IMG/VR virus record: IMGVR_UViG_3300009161_000212 | Location: 1-25,290 of that record | Strand: one strand, 5' to 3' | Length of the DNA: 25,290 bases | Source: a virus | In this document: positions 1,204-25,290 of the stretch, piece by piece | Layout of the letters: every line of letters starts with the position of its first letter | How positions within the stretch are numbered: the first letter of the stretch is position 1 | Position numbers and translations under genes: made by a program | Notes under the pieces: generated by a model | Database searches by the model: none | What the model was told of the DNA's origin: nothing | The model's input: the letters and a program-made list of their open reading frames with translations, nothing else

Positions 1204-2286
1204 TCAGGAGGAAAGTCTAACCAGCGACGGTGCGGTCGCATTGGTTTCGGTGCATCCGGCTAGAATTGACTCTAGTCGAACATCCAACGCCTTGCCCTTC
1301 TCTTGAGTCGCGGCCTTGACCGCATCCTTGAGCTTGCCCTTGGCGATTGAGACGCAGGACATGAACGCCTCGGAATTTACTCCGAGTGCAGCGGTGCGGT
1401 TATAGACGGTCGTCGCATCCTTGATCGTCTCACGCTCGCTGCCGGGTTTCAGCGTCCACCCAGGCACCACGTCTCCAGATTCAAGTCGGCGCTTGGCTTC
1501 GGCCTTGCACGCGTCAATCACGCGAGTCGCAAACTCGGCGCGCTCCAAAAACTCAGCCAGCGTCTGCGAGGTCAGCGTGGCCGCGATTGCGTCGGCAGTC
1601 GTACCTGCTGGCGTAGCCGCCACGGGCAGCGCCACCGAGGCTTCCCTAGCCTCTGGGCAATACGGCTTTGCTTTGCAGTATTTACACGCTTCTGGAGACG
1701 GTATCCTAGGCGCATTCGGTGCGTTGATGCGGTCGACGATCCGACCGATCTCGGCGCGTGCCACGATCAGGTCCTCAAACGTGTATTCGCAGACCGTCGG
1801 AGCACCTGCCAGCGGCTGGACGATCGCAACCGTCACCCTGGTTAGGCCATGATGAATACCGACCAGCACGGCCAGGGCGCGGAGTTGGAGGTTGCCCTCG
1901 GCGCTCGTCACCTCGCCGCGCCCGGTCTTGTAGTCGATCACCACACCGTCACCGCTCAGGCTGTCAATCGCGACCACGTCGGGCTTGCCGGACCAGTCCC
2001 GCCCCACCCAATACCGACGCTCGCGGATGATCTCGTCCCGGTACGGTAGCACGGTGTTCAGGATCGTTTCTTCTTGCTCGCGGCATCGCAGCGCGAGGTC
2101 TACCTCATCAGAGGTCAACGGCACGGTCATTGTCTCACCTGCGAGCCACGCATGGATGCGGTTGCCGGTCGCAGCGTCGTCTGATGTCTGATCGGGAATG
2201 CCCTGCTCCGCTTGCCATGAGCCAGGACAGAGTTGGTACCGACCCATGCTCGACGCCGAGGGCTTGTTGTTGCGCTCGTCACTCAC
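1204..2286 (-). CDS. Cas4/RecB-like PD-(D/E)XK nuclease (DUF2800-type), RecT partner
   Basis: The protein has 360 residues and a GTG start at 2286-2284 in a GTGA overlap with the gene before. It carries a PD-(D/E)XK core: H45 in GNRIHAW, D103 in SGKPDVVAID, D118 and K120 in VIDYKTG, and a Q-containing helix near 133 (NLQLRALAV). Four cysteines (C20 in LCPGSW, then C201, C204, C210 in CKYCKAKPYC) match the split Fe-S cluster arrangement of Cas4 and AddB nucleases. The likely role is a 5'-3' exonuclease that makes single strands for RecT. This is inferred from fold and position; substrate polarity cannot be read from sequence. Confidence 0.85.
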   Translation of the reverse strand: MSDERNNKPSASSMGRYQLCPGSWQAEQGIPDQTSDDAATGNRIHAWLAGETMTVPLTSDEVDLALRCREQEETILNTVLPYRDEIIRERRYWVGRDWSGKPDVVAIDSLSGDGVVIDYKTGRGEVTSAEGNLQLRALAVLVGIHHGLTRVTVAIVQPLAGAPTVCEYTFEDLIVARAEIGRIVDRINAPNAPRIPSPEACKYCKAKPYCPEAREASVALPVAATPAGTTADAIAATLTSQTLAEFLERAEFATRVIDACKAEAKRRLESGDVVPGWTLKPGSERETIKDATTVYNRTAALGVNSEAFMSCVSIAKGKLKDAVKAATQEKGKALDVRLESILAGCTETNATAPSLVRLSS

Positions 2287-2642
2287 ACTTCACCTCTCAT
2301 TCTTGCGGCGTGCTTGGCTTTAACCTCCTCGACGGCCAGCCGGTCCTCTTCCCGGAGCGGATCGAGCGGAAGTCCGGGTTGGTTGGGGTCGTCCATCGAC
2401 GCGGTGACCGTGAATTTGCGTCGCACGTTCACCGGCATGGACACAACCACGGCGGATCCATCAAGATCCCATTTGGCGGTGATCGCGAGCGACAGGACCG
2501 CTTTGCCTTCCTCCTTCTCCTGCGCCTCTTCCATGGTCGCGGTGATGGCCTCGGTGATGTTGTCCCGCGCCTCGTCGATCAAGATCGGAACCTGCGCGCA
2601 GATCACGCGTTTCAGTTCGTCGATGCGGTCTTGAGCGTTCAC
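2283..2642 (-). CDS. Unknown protein between RecT and nuclease genes (119 aa)
   Basis: A GTG at 2642-2640 overlaps the RecT stop as GTGA; this choice gives a tight operon, whereas the longer form would begin inside RecT. The N-terminal half is acidic and helical (IDELKRVICAQVPILIDEA and EAITATMEEAQEKEE). The middle is a beta-rich segment (KAVLSLAITAKWDLDGSAVVVSMPV). The C-terminus is charged (LREEDRLAVEEVKAKHAARMRGEV). Its place between an annealase and its nuclease suggests a recombination accessory, for example a single-strand-binding or bridging factor, but I do not recognise the family. Confidence 0.75.
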   Translation of the reverse strand: MNAQDRIDELKRVICAQVPILIDEARDNITEAITATMEEAQEKEEGKAVLSLAITAKWDLDGSAVVVSMPVNVRRKFTVTASMDDPNQPGLPLDPLREEDRLAVEEVKAKHAARMRGEV

Positions 2643-3562
2643 TTGCCACCTCCTTCGACCCACTTTTTAGCTTTCGAAACGACCGGCCCGAGATTGTCCG
2701 CGATGCGCCCGACCAGAGCCTCGTCGAGTTCCGCAAACGAGTCAGCCGCAACGTGGATCTTGCGGACCTCGACCATCCACCGGCGGAACAGGTCGAAACT
2801 CACGCCCACCTCGATGAACGCCTCGGCGATTGCCTGACGGCGCAGGTCCAGATCGGACGGGTGGGCGATTTCCTGCGTCGCCTCGGCAACCGGCGTTGGT
2901 TCTGGTGTTGGTTCAGGTTCCGGCGCCGGAGTCGCAAACATCGGCGGCGTAACGTTGCGCGCAGTCGCCACCGGATCGTCCTGGACCTCCTCGACCGTGC
3001 GCAGACCGCGCAGGGCGTCCCCAAATTGATCGCGCAGGGCAAACGAGCGAGCGCGATGTTTCAACATCCGGGCAGGGTACTGCGTCCAAGGGCCTGCCTT
3101 GCCCCACAAGTTAGCCCTCTTGGCGTCGGCCACGGAGAACGCAGTCTCGGCAGGCTCGTAGCCCTGACGCTGCACTCGGCAGACTGCCGTTGTCGCGTCG
3201 GTAAACGTCGCAGGGTTTCGCGGCAACCGTTTACCGGCCTCCTCGTACCACTCCTCAAACAGCGCCAACTCTCCGGTGCTGCGGACAACCGCAAGCTGCG
3301 CGTCTCCCCAGATCGCAGGACGACCGTTGATCACCGCGATGTTCTGCAAGGCAGCCATCATCGGGAGGCCAACCTCCAACCCCATCTCAAGAGCGACGAA
3401 GATCGCCTCTGGCGTCTCAATGCCTTTCGGCGCCAACCCGGATTTGCTGACCGCAGTCGCGAACCGATAGAGATCGTCCATGCTGGACGGCGCGATGCCT
3501 CGGTTGCCGATTGGCACCACCTGCTTGGTCGGCGGCTGCTGCGTTGTTAGTGCGTTGCTCAT
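2639..3562 (-). CDS. recT: RecT-family single-strand annealing protein
   Basis: The protein has 307 residues. ATG 3562-3560 begins two bases after the stop of the preceding mini-gene; an upstream ATG would overlap that gene. The RecT core is clear: residues about 29-90 contain DLYRFATAVSKSGLAPKG, ALEMGLEVGLPMMAALQNIA and VINGRPAIWGDAQLAVVRS. PARMLKHRARSFALRDQFGD follows, the conserved helical end of the core. A Pro/Glu-rich linker (PEPEPTPEPTPV) joins a C-terminal helical domain of about 90 residues. It anneals complementary single strands during phage recombination and is followed by a Cas4/RecB-like nuclease, the usual pairing. Family assignment is firm; the C-terminal domain is not recognised. 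Confidence 0.93.
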   Translation of the reverse strand: MSNALTTQQPPTKQVVPIGNRGIAPSSMDDLYRFATAVSKSGLAPKGIETPEAIFVALEMGLEVGLPMMAALQNIAVINGRPAIWGDAQLAVVRSTGELALFEEWYEEAGKRLPRNPATFTDATTAVCRVQRQGYEPAETAFSVADAKRANLWGKAGPWTQYPARMLKHRARSFALRDQFGDALRGLRTVEEVQDDPVATARNVTPPMFATPAPEPEPTPEPTPVAEATQEIAHPSDLDLRRQAIAEAFIEVGVSFDLFRRWMVEVRKIHVAADSFAELDEALVGRIADNLGPVVSKAKKWVEGGGK

Positions 3563-3906: not shown

Positions 3907-4155
3907 TCAGATGCTAGCAGCACTCCAGCACGGTTCGACGCCATCGTCGTCAGGCCCCAGGTACTCGCCGGTGTAGCTGTTGAAATACGCTTCAACCGTG
4001 CGGCCCTCTGCGTCGCAGTGGTTGCCTTGCGCGTTGCGCCATCCTGTCGGGGTGACGGTCACAGACGGGATGCCGTCCTGCTCGCGGATTGTGAGGTTCT
4101 CGCGTTGGGCGAGTCGGCGGGCATCAGAGCCGGTGATTTTGTAGGTCGTAGACAT
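3907..4155 (-). CDS. Early small protein of unknown function (82 aa)
   Basis: ATG 4155-4153 is chosen because the longer frame would overlap the repressor gene and run through the operator-like sites. The protein begins MSTTYKITGSDARRLAQREN. It has a beta-rich middle (LTIREQDGIPSVTVTPTGW) and a C-terminus with YFNSYTGEYLGPDDDG and one Cys-Trp pair. No family is recognised. It is the first gene downstream of the operator pair at 4207-4243 and would be the first product of the operon that those sites control. Confidence 0.65.
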   Translation of the reverse strand: MSTTYKITGSDARRLAQRENLTIREQDGIPSVTVTPTGWRNAQGNHCDAEGRTVEAYFNSYTGEYLGPDDDGVEPCWSAASI

Positions 4156-4206
4156 ATTCTCGTCAGTATTGGTTTCGCTTTCGACATGCGCAGTAAAGCC
4201 TGCCGA

Positions 4207-4220
4207 TTGCGCGGACGCAA
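4207..4220. promoter_or_regulatory. Operator-like palindrome, site 1
   Basis: The sequence TTGCGCGGACGCAA has perfect 5-base arms (TTGCG/CGCAA) around four bases. It lies just past the stop of the repressor-like gene and 52 bases upstream of the 82-residue gene. Three further copies lie within 275 bases. It is probably a binding site for the adjacent helix-turn-helix protein. Confidence 0.65.
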
Positions 4221-4223
4221 CAA

Positions 4224-4424
4224 CTATTTTTGCGGACACGCAAATTTCTTTTCGGCGCAAATCAACGCTTGGTACGTGCTGACGCTCGGAGTCTGCCCAC
4301 GTTCAAGAATGCGCCAGAGCGTGGTATGGCTCACGTCGGCTGCGCTGGCCCAGTCCTGAATGGTGACGTCCTGTTTAGCCAAGCGATCGCGGATTGCGCG
4401 GAGTTCGCGCTTAAAATCATGCAT
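4224..4424 (-). CDS. Small helix-turn-helix repressor-like protein (66 aa)
   Basis: ATG 4424-4422 is preferred over upstream starts because the extended N-terminus would be translated from the operator sites and has no domain character. The product is essentially one DNA-binding domain: RAIRDRLAKQDVTIQDWASA then AADVSHTTLWRILERGQTPS, a lambda-repressor/XRE-like helix-turn-helix with the recognition helix around SHTTLWRILERG. There is no C-terminal dimerisation or autocleavage domain, so it is closer in size to Cro than to full-length CI. Two palindromes lie just upstream and two overlap its 3' end or the gap after it, consistent with autoregulation and control of the downstream operon. That role is inference. 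Confidence 0.75.
   Translation of the reverse strand: MHDFKRELRAIRDRLAKQDVTIQDWASAADVSHTTLWRILERGQTPSVSTYQALICAEKKFACPQK
4230..4243. promoter_or_regulatory. Operator-like palindrome, site 2
   Basis: The sequence TTGCGGACACGCAA has perfect 5-base arms, extended by a further T/A pair to 16 bases. It overlaps the last codons of the repressor-like gene and starts 23 bases from site 1, about two helical turns. A lone half-site (CGCAA) lies at 4256-4260. Confidence 0.65.
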
Positions 4425-4445
4425 GGGCGGACCATGAGCACCGGA

Positions 4446-4459
4446 TTGCGTGGGCGCAA
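4446..4459. promoter_or_regulatory. Operator-like palindrome, site 3
   Basis: The sequence TTGCGTGGGCGCAA has perfect 5-base arms around TGGG. It lies 22 bases upstream of the preferred start of the repressor-like gene, where binding would block its transcription or translation. Confidence 0.65.
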
Positions 4460-4467
4460 GATTGGAG

Positions 4468-4481
4468 TTGCGCGGGTGCAA
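4468..4481. promoter_or_regulatory. Operator-like palindrome, site 4
   Basis: The sequence TTGCGCGGGTGCAA matches the other sites at nine of ten arm positions. It starts 22 bases from site 3, reproducing the spacing of the other pair (23 bases). No convincing -35/-10 pair could be assigned beside it. Confidence 0.6.
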
Positions 4482-4805
4482 TCGTTGTGCTGTTGACATC
4501 CTTTCAACCATTGGCATTGTCCAACCCGTCAGAGGGACCGAGGTCCCGCAGGTTTGAAACCCTGTGCTACATCGAAAGTGAGCTTTGCCGCCTGAGTGCC
4601 TACGGGCACACCCAAGTGTCCGAGGCTGTTCCCAAAGGAACGGAGTGGAAACTGGAGGGTGACGACAGCGCGCTTAGGCGTGGTGTCTTTACCCTTCGGA
4701 ACCGGGCTGAAACCCAAGGAACAAAGAGGAATCCGGGAACCTCAAGACCTTAAGGAAACCGGATAGTCCTTGGATGATCCCGAAATCCGTTTCGGGATGA
4801 TCCCT
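4482..4805. other. Gene-free stretch rich in inverted repeats; possible structured RNA or inserted element
   Basis: No convincing gene lies between the operators and the end of the Cys-rich gene. Many short perfect inverted repeats are visible: GGGACC/GGTCCC (4534-4547), GGTTT/AAACC (about 4551-4561), GTGCC/GGCAC (about 4597-4610), GTTCC/GGAAC (about 4628-4641), ATCCGG/CCGGAT (about 4731-4764) and the large hairpin at 4772-4803. Open frames exist on both strands (for example a TTG-started 62-codon frame at 4717-4529), but they have no domain character or junction support. It could be a noncoding RNA, an untranslated leader of the repressor, or a small interspersed repeat element. Confidence 0.45.
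4772..4803. other. Strong hairpin, 13-bp stem with one mismatch
   Basis: GGAT, a G-G mismatch, AT and CCCGAAA pair with TTTCGGG, AT and ATCC around a 4-base TCCG loop. The hairpin begins just past the 3' end of the Cys-rich gene (stop at 4806). No T tract follows on either strand, so it is not a standard intrinsic terminator; it may protect an RNA end or be part of a repeat element. Confidence 0.7.
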
Positions 4806-5027
4806 TCAAGCTTTGCGCGAAACCGGACACTCCTGAGGATGAGTCCACGGTGAAATTCTGTGAGCGCCACGCGGGCAGCCGTTGCGCGGATGGCAGCACC
4901 TGAACACCGATTCTTGGAACCACTCGCACGCTCCGCACATTTCCCGCGACGGGCCGATCACTCGACGGGTTGCGGTGACGGTCTCGCCCTGTGGTTGCCG
5001 GACCCGGCCTGTTACGCGGAATGTCAT
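4806..5027 (-). CDS. Cys-rich, probably zinc-binding small protein (73 aa)
   Basis: ATG 5027-5025 overlaps the stop of the ribbon-helix-helix gene as ATGA. The N-terminus is a short beta-like segment (MTFRVTGRVRQPQGETVTAT). It is followed by a cysteine cluster: CGAC at about residues 31-34, then CCHPRNGC and a late Cys in PQECPVS. This spacing suggests one or two zinc sites or a metal-binding knuckle. It forms a co-translated unit with the RHH protein and the zinc-ribbon frame upstream. Function is unknown; a role in early gene control or host takeover is only a guess. Confidence 0.7.
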   Translation of the reverse strand: MTFRVTGRVRQPQGETVTATRRVIGPSREMCGACEWFQESVFRCCHPRNGCPRGAHRISPWTHPQECPVSRKA

Positions 5028-25258: not shown

Positions 25259-25290
25259 GTTTAGACGGAGGTCGGTCTGCTGCGGTCACC

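Follow-up and report, generated by a model that had tools for sequence, protein, structure and literature searches.

Two pairs of palindromes around a small HTH gene

The window, the whole stretch of DNA analyzed here, is the 25,290-base IMG/VR virus record IMGVR_UViG_3300009161_000212, from an uncultured tailed phage. It contains a gene for a 66-aa helix-turn-helix (HTH) protein, which lies downstream of late genes for terminase, portal, protease, head and tail. The early operon codes for RecT, exonuclease, SSB, helicase and primase functions. Four palindromic sites, arranged as pair A and pair B, accompany the HTH gene. The features of the region are as follows.

4468..4481, minus strand: predicted operator A1, the distal site of pair A, reading TTGCACCCGCGCAA on the coding strand; its outer 4+4 bases do not vary among six phages
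4460..4467, minus strand: linker A, CTCCAATC; CTCCAA[TA]C in six of six phages
4446..4459, minus strand: predicted operator site A2, proximal, TTGCGCCCACGCAA; would overlap a putative -35 (4459-4454)
4431..4436, minus strand: putative -10 CATGGT, 17 nt from TTGCGC of A2 and 6 nt before the HTH ATG
4224..4424, minus strand: 66-aa HTH (XRE/lambda-repressor-like) regulator gene, an open frame with ATG at 4424 and stop at 4224-4226; five homologues
4230..4243, minus strand: predicted operator site B1, distal, TTGCGTGTCCGCAA; within the final codons of the HTH gene
4207..4220, minus strand: predicted operator site B2, proximal, TTGCGTCCGCGCAA; just past the HTH stop; would overlap a putative -35 (4220-4215)
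4192..4197, minus strand: putative -10 TTTACT, proposed for the early-operon promoter; 17 nt from TTGCGT of B2
3907..4155, minus strand: first gene after pair B, 82 aa, without known family; unrelated small genes in this slot in relatives
2639..3562, minus strand: RecT-like annealing protein of the early operon (phrog_561, E 6.5e-39)
1204..2286, minus strand: DUF2800/PD-(D/E)XK exonuclease of the early operon (phrog_69, E 5.1e-44; DUF2800, E 2.4e-26)
25259-25290, minus-strand start of the window: start shared by three records, before the small-terminase-like gene; corresponding 14 nt at L176 1-14 and L177 18676-18689

The original prediction described three exact copies and one near-exact copy of a palindrome in two pairs, and the sequence confirmed these positions: TTGCG-N4-CGCAA was exact at 4207-4220, 4230-4243 and 4446-4459, and had one mismatch at 4468-4481. 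When read on the coding strand, TTGCR-N4-YGCAA fits all four sites, and this form was found in the whole window at 4207, 4230, 4446 and 4468 only. The sites are spaced by 22 bp in pair A (4446/4468) and by 23 bp in pair B (4207/4230). Pair A ends 21 nt upstream of the ATG of the HTH gene, while pair B spans its stop codon, with the site at 4230 in the last codons and the site at 4207 beyond the stop. Because the HTH gene is read from the minus strand, pair A is the upstream pair, and pair B is at the 3' end, ahead of the next genes. The placement of one pair upstream of the gene and the other over its 3' end was thus borne out and clarified, and the genes around the HTH gene are indeed on one strand, in line and with no divergent promoters, as had been proposed.

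The cluster had also been judged too dense for chance, and resampling agreed with this judgment. Over 300 Markov resamplings, exact TTGCG-N4-CGCAA averaged 0.06 copies per window, with a maximum of 1. When clusters of the same arm within 300 bp were counted for any arm and any gap, the largest contained three in the real window and two in 60 resamplings, so that no resampled cluster was as large. With two mismatches allowed, the motif was found 16 times against 22 expected window-wide. This lack of excess indicated that the signal is confined to the local cluster.

Fold of the 66-aa protein

Sequence searches of the 66-aa protein returned sub-threshold HTH matches only. Pfam gave weak matches to HTH_31 and HTH_3, with HTH_31 at 21 bits, below the cut-off of 27. 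The BcepMu gp16 family (TIGR04111), which likewise comprises phage-associated small HTH proteins, matched the window protein with E 0.001 and the protein of a second phage record, L020, with E 0.002, but these matches (19 and 18 bits) were far below the family cut-off of 34. A tblastn search of 50,697 phage records with the HTH protein gave no match. A sequence profile search of PDB gave mainly pentatricopeptide matches, which were judged spurious.

The AlphaFold2 model (mean pLDDT 87) contains helices at residues 4-17, 22-28, 33-42 and 48-61, forming the compact helical HTH fold of XRE or lambda-repressor-like proteins. Structural matches of the model were XRE regulators with Z of about 7-8, including controller (C) proteins of restriction-modification systems, DdrO, P22 c2 and Aca10. 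The comparison with Aca10 (7xi5) gave Z 6.8 and rmsd 2.4 over 56 residues. Eukaryotic HNF-1, at the top of the structural list, was ascribed to the generic POU/XRE-like fold. As modeled, the 66-aa protein is a single domain of the lambda-repressor type, without an extra oligomerisation domain. In the predicted recognition helix (33-42), H33, T35, L36, W37, R38, I39 and L40 are invariant, which would fit an unchanged DNA target.

Conservation of the protein and the sites in related phages

Scanning viral contigs with the protein yielded four close HTH homologues with 89-95% identity. The 24-kb record L020 was recovered independently, by the paired-palindrome DNA pattern alone, and encodes at the same place a 72-aa protein with 50% identity to the window HTH protein, accompanied by both pairs with the same spacings. 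The viral scan with the paired pattern yielded 15 stretches under strict settings and at least 119 under relaxed settings. Once L020 and the close relatives are set aside, the pattern matches listed were without the HTH protein, and those examined were coding repeats or unrelated genes. Among the matches listed, by pattern or by protein, double pairs 200-300 bp apart were confined to these phages. Paired sites were also absent from more distant RecT phages without the HTH protein.

Each of the six records with the protein has two pairs and no more, one spaced by 22 and the other by 23, and both are placed around the HTH gene. The original prediction suggested looking for the motif in related phages and regarded a relative with a similar protein but without conserved palindromes as evidence against it. 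The opposite was found, since protein and sites were together in six of six phages.

The sites were conserved to different degrees in their parts. In every site the outer eight bases agreed with those of the window, at 32 of 32 positions in each of the five relatives, and the half-sites read TTGCR in 48 of 48 cases in the six phages. Identity to the window was 14-19 of 24 in the site centres and down to 98/181 in the HTH coding sequence (L020); in four relatives, the stretch upstream of pair A agreed with the window at 8-10 of 24-29 bases. Site B2 was identical in the window and the four close relatives and differed by one base in L020. The distance from A2 to the HTH ATG was exactly 21 nt in all six phages; in L020, an interval of exactly 21 nt also separates the proximal B site from the next ATG. 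Since only one of the five relatives is a distant phage, part of this conservation reflects close kinship.

Linker A was kept as CTCCAA[TA]C even in L020, though the groups have unrelated sequences on the upstream side of pair A. Translation through pair A, with a possible TTG start in A1, was considered, as the frame is open in six of six phages, and was set aside. A constraint at the DNA level was preferred because the third-codon positions of the linker are constant, L020 included, and the groups have no related sequence ahead of A1. Looping between the pairs gained no support, because their distance changes from 238 bp in five phages to 256 bp in L020 and the helical phase is therefore not kept.

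The RecT of L020 belongs to phrog_148 and that of the window to phrog_561; the two phages also differ in their tape-measure and tail genes. The presence of a homologous protein and the same operators beside another RecT family and other tail genes suggests that they were exchanged together, and the regulator and its predicted operators probably travel between phages as a unit.

Promoter geometry and proposed regulation

A strict sigma-70 scan of the region returned no promoter, and the proposed -10 hexamers match two to four of the six consensus bases. The position of the weak -10, which ends 6 nt before the ATG, suggests that the mRNAs would be leaderless.

We concluded from the sequence comparison that the 66-aa HTH protein very probably uses the four sites as operators. 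The best explanation as a whole, to which we give a probability of about 0.66, is that the HTH protein would act as a negative-feedback regulator of itself and of the early operon through the paired operators. One HTH dimer would bind each 14-bp site, reading two TTGCR half-sites, and two dimers would sit side by side on each pair, about two helical turns apart. Cooperative binding of the dimers within each pair is plausible; the spacing of 22/23 bp does not vary among the phages. Pair A would serve the promoter of the regulator itself, and pair B that of the early recombination/replication operon on the same strand. As the proximal site covers the putative -35, its occupancy should exclude RNA polymerase. 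Both promoters would be active early in infection, and the accumulating protein would then silence itself and the early genes. With an early operon of recombination and replication functions, the expected effect is feedback on the regulator and the early genes. Such an outcome may be likened to feedback of the Cro or Aca type, in an apparently lytic phage.

A small autoregulating HTH protein of a phage is a familiar kind of biology. Little is known of gene control in such uncultured phages, possibly of Verrucomicrobiota, for which the locus provides a candidate regulator-operator pair with a defined motif and promoter layout.

Genome ends, lifestyle and alternative explanations

The window and the records G001 and G002 begin at the same base, 32 nt before a small-terminase-like gene, with GGTGA[AC]CGC[TA]GCAG. 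G001 is 35,689 bp long, and its terminal 14 nt are the same as its initial 14 nt. The 14-nt repeat probably marks a cos site whose cohesive ends are 14 nt long, and its presence at both ends makes G001 probably a complete cos genome of about 35.7 kb. The cultured verrucomicrobial phage P8625 (32.9 kb) was described as lytic (PMC4642752). Its layout is similar, with genes on one strand, RecT in mid-genome, and primase and helicase last. P8625 and Akkermansia phages were among the weak matches, from which a host in the phylum Verrucomicrobiota may be guessed.

The palindromes had originally been taken as parts of a compact immunity switch. A small phage HTH protein of the repressor type, with paired operators at its own and the early promoters, would suit a lysogeny or immunity repressor that keeps the early promoters off in a prophage or plasmid-like state. 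However, tyrosine integrase (PF00589) was found in none of the five records searched, and resolvase/serine integrase (PF00239), rve transposase (PF00665), ParA-type protein (PF13614) and the CI/S24 domain (PF00717) were found in none of six records. Some of the searched records are fragments; the complete-looking G001 was among those in which integrase, rve, ParA and S24 were not found. Nor was a second HTH_3-like gene found in the six records, where the annotated neighbours are on one strand, leaving no divergent gene or promoter. In addition, scans of 84,980 species genomes, one for each of two alignments, found no relative of the HTH protein, and P8625, the cultured phage of similar layout, has been described as lytic. 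The lack of lysogeny genes in the records searched, the complete-looking G001 and the reportedly lytic P8625 led us to reject the immunity switch as the leading reading, and we regard it as very unlikely.

The paired sites before the gene might instead operate a timer like that of C proteins, in which the distal site is filled first and activates, and the proximal site over the -35 is filled later and represses. The layout is that of restriction-modification controllers, in which a small HTH protein has two operators before its own gene (PMC4321490). Several C proteins appear in the fold comparison, and weak promoters such as those proposed here are expected where activation is needed. On the other hand, no restriction enzyme gene follows the HTH gene, the gaps between C-protein sites are about 4 bp or 18-25 bp against 8-9 bp here, and the centre of the distal site would fall near -52. 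We regard such a timer as unlikely.

Palindromes may also serve as replication iterons, partition sites, targets of a host regulator or RNA hairpins. Unrelated phages do have tandem TTGC-N6-GCAA arrays with 21-24 bp spacing within genes that look like replication genes; those at L060 7271-7383, L018 1077-1134, L079 721-823 and L024 7039-7156, spaced by 21-23 bp, are possibly replication iterons. The sites studied here, however, co-occur with the HTH protein at a fixed distance from the start codon, and there was no Rfam match. Their arms show no compensatory change; positions 5 and 10 form A-C or G-T pairs while the half-sites stay TTGCR, which points to reading of the DNA by a protein and not to RNA pairing. 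We consider these other roles highly improbable and retain negative feedback by the HTH protein as the preferred reading.

Comparison with known regulators

In published work, Aca proteins repress the operon by way of one or two inverted repeats that lie within the core promoter and overlap promoter elements (PMC9410906, PMC9410881); exclusion of polymerase from the proximal site is proposed here by analogy. Like the Aca repressors Aca2 and Aca10, the protein described here is a small HTH protein encoded by a mobile element, and its predicted operators would likewise lie in the promoter. The layout fits promoter repeats of the Aca type, and the sites predicted to mediate repression are conserved across the six phages. 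The differences are that the regulator here precedes the cargo genes, whereas Aca is usually downstream, that two double operators serve two in-line promoters, and that no known anti-CRISPR gene was recognised, the small neighbours being without family. None of the family searches named the window protein an Aca protein.

In lambdoid phages, sites for HTH dimers of comparable size stand in tandem about two helical turns apart. The present locus resembles the Cro/CI system in such tandem sites and in the predicted control of both the early genes and the regulator's own synthesis. It differs in having no divergent promoters, second repressor, S24 domain or integrase, and in having two sites per promoter instead of the three of the lambdoid switch.

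The C proteins C.AhdI, C.Esp1396I and C.Csp231I are also small single-domain XRE proteins with paired operators ahead of their own gene (PMC4321490), and C-protein folds matched the model with Z 7-8. Here, in contrast, no restriction-modification genes adjoin the regulator, the recognition sequence and spacing are different, and a second operator pair lies inside and after the gene.

A variable slot after pair B and other features of the window

The slot after pair B was occupied by four unrelated kinds of genes in the six phages (3907-4155 in the window; L004, L005, L006 and L007 from 6270; L020 1992-2210). These small genes matched nothing in Pfam, PHROG, NCBIfam or PADLOC above cut-off. Their diversity at one position suggests an exchangeable early slot, which the regulator and its operators would mark and which may hold anti-defence genes. 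As a tentative extension, we doubtfully suggest that the regulator and its two double operators might form a transplantable cassette for early expression, with the second promoter driving an exchangeable slot of anti-defence genes. If this were true, the four unrelated kinds of genes in the slot would make the operator sequence usable as bait for new anti-defence genes in this group of phages, possibly phages of Verrucomicrobiota.

Upstream of the HTH gene, the region 4530-4850 contains several strong hairpins, for example GGATGATCCCGAAA/TTTCGGGATGATCC at 4772-4803, and a similar hairpin was found upstream of the HTH gene in L007. This region gave no Rfam match and is possibly the end of the late operon. 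At 3-383 on the minus strand, the window encodes a protein whose end consists of alanine-rich AWAAARAAARAAARA repeats. It is within this repeat that the record stops, and the break is probably an assembly stop.
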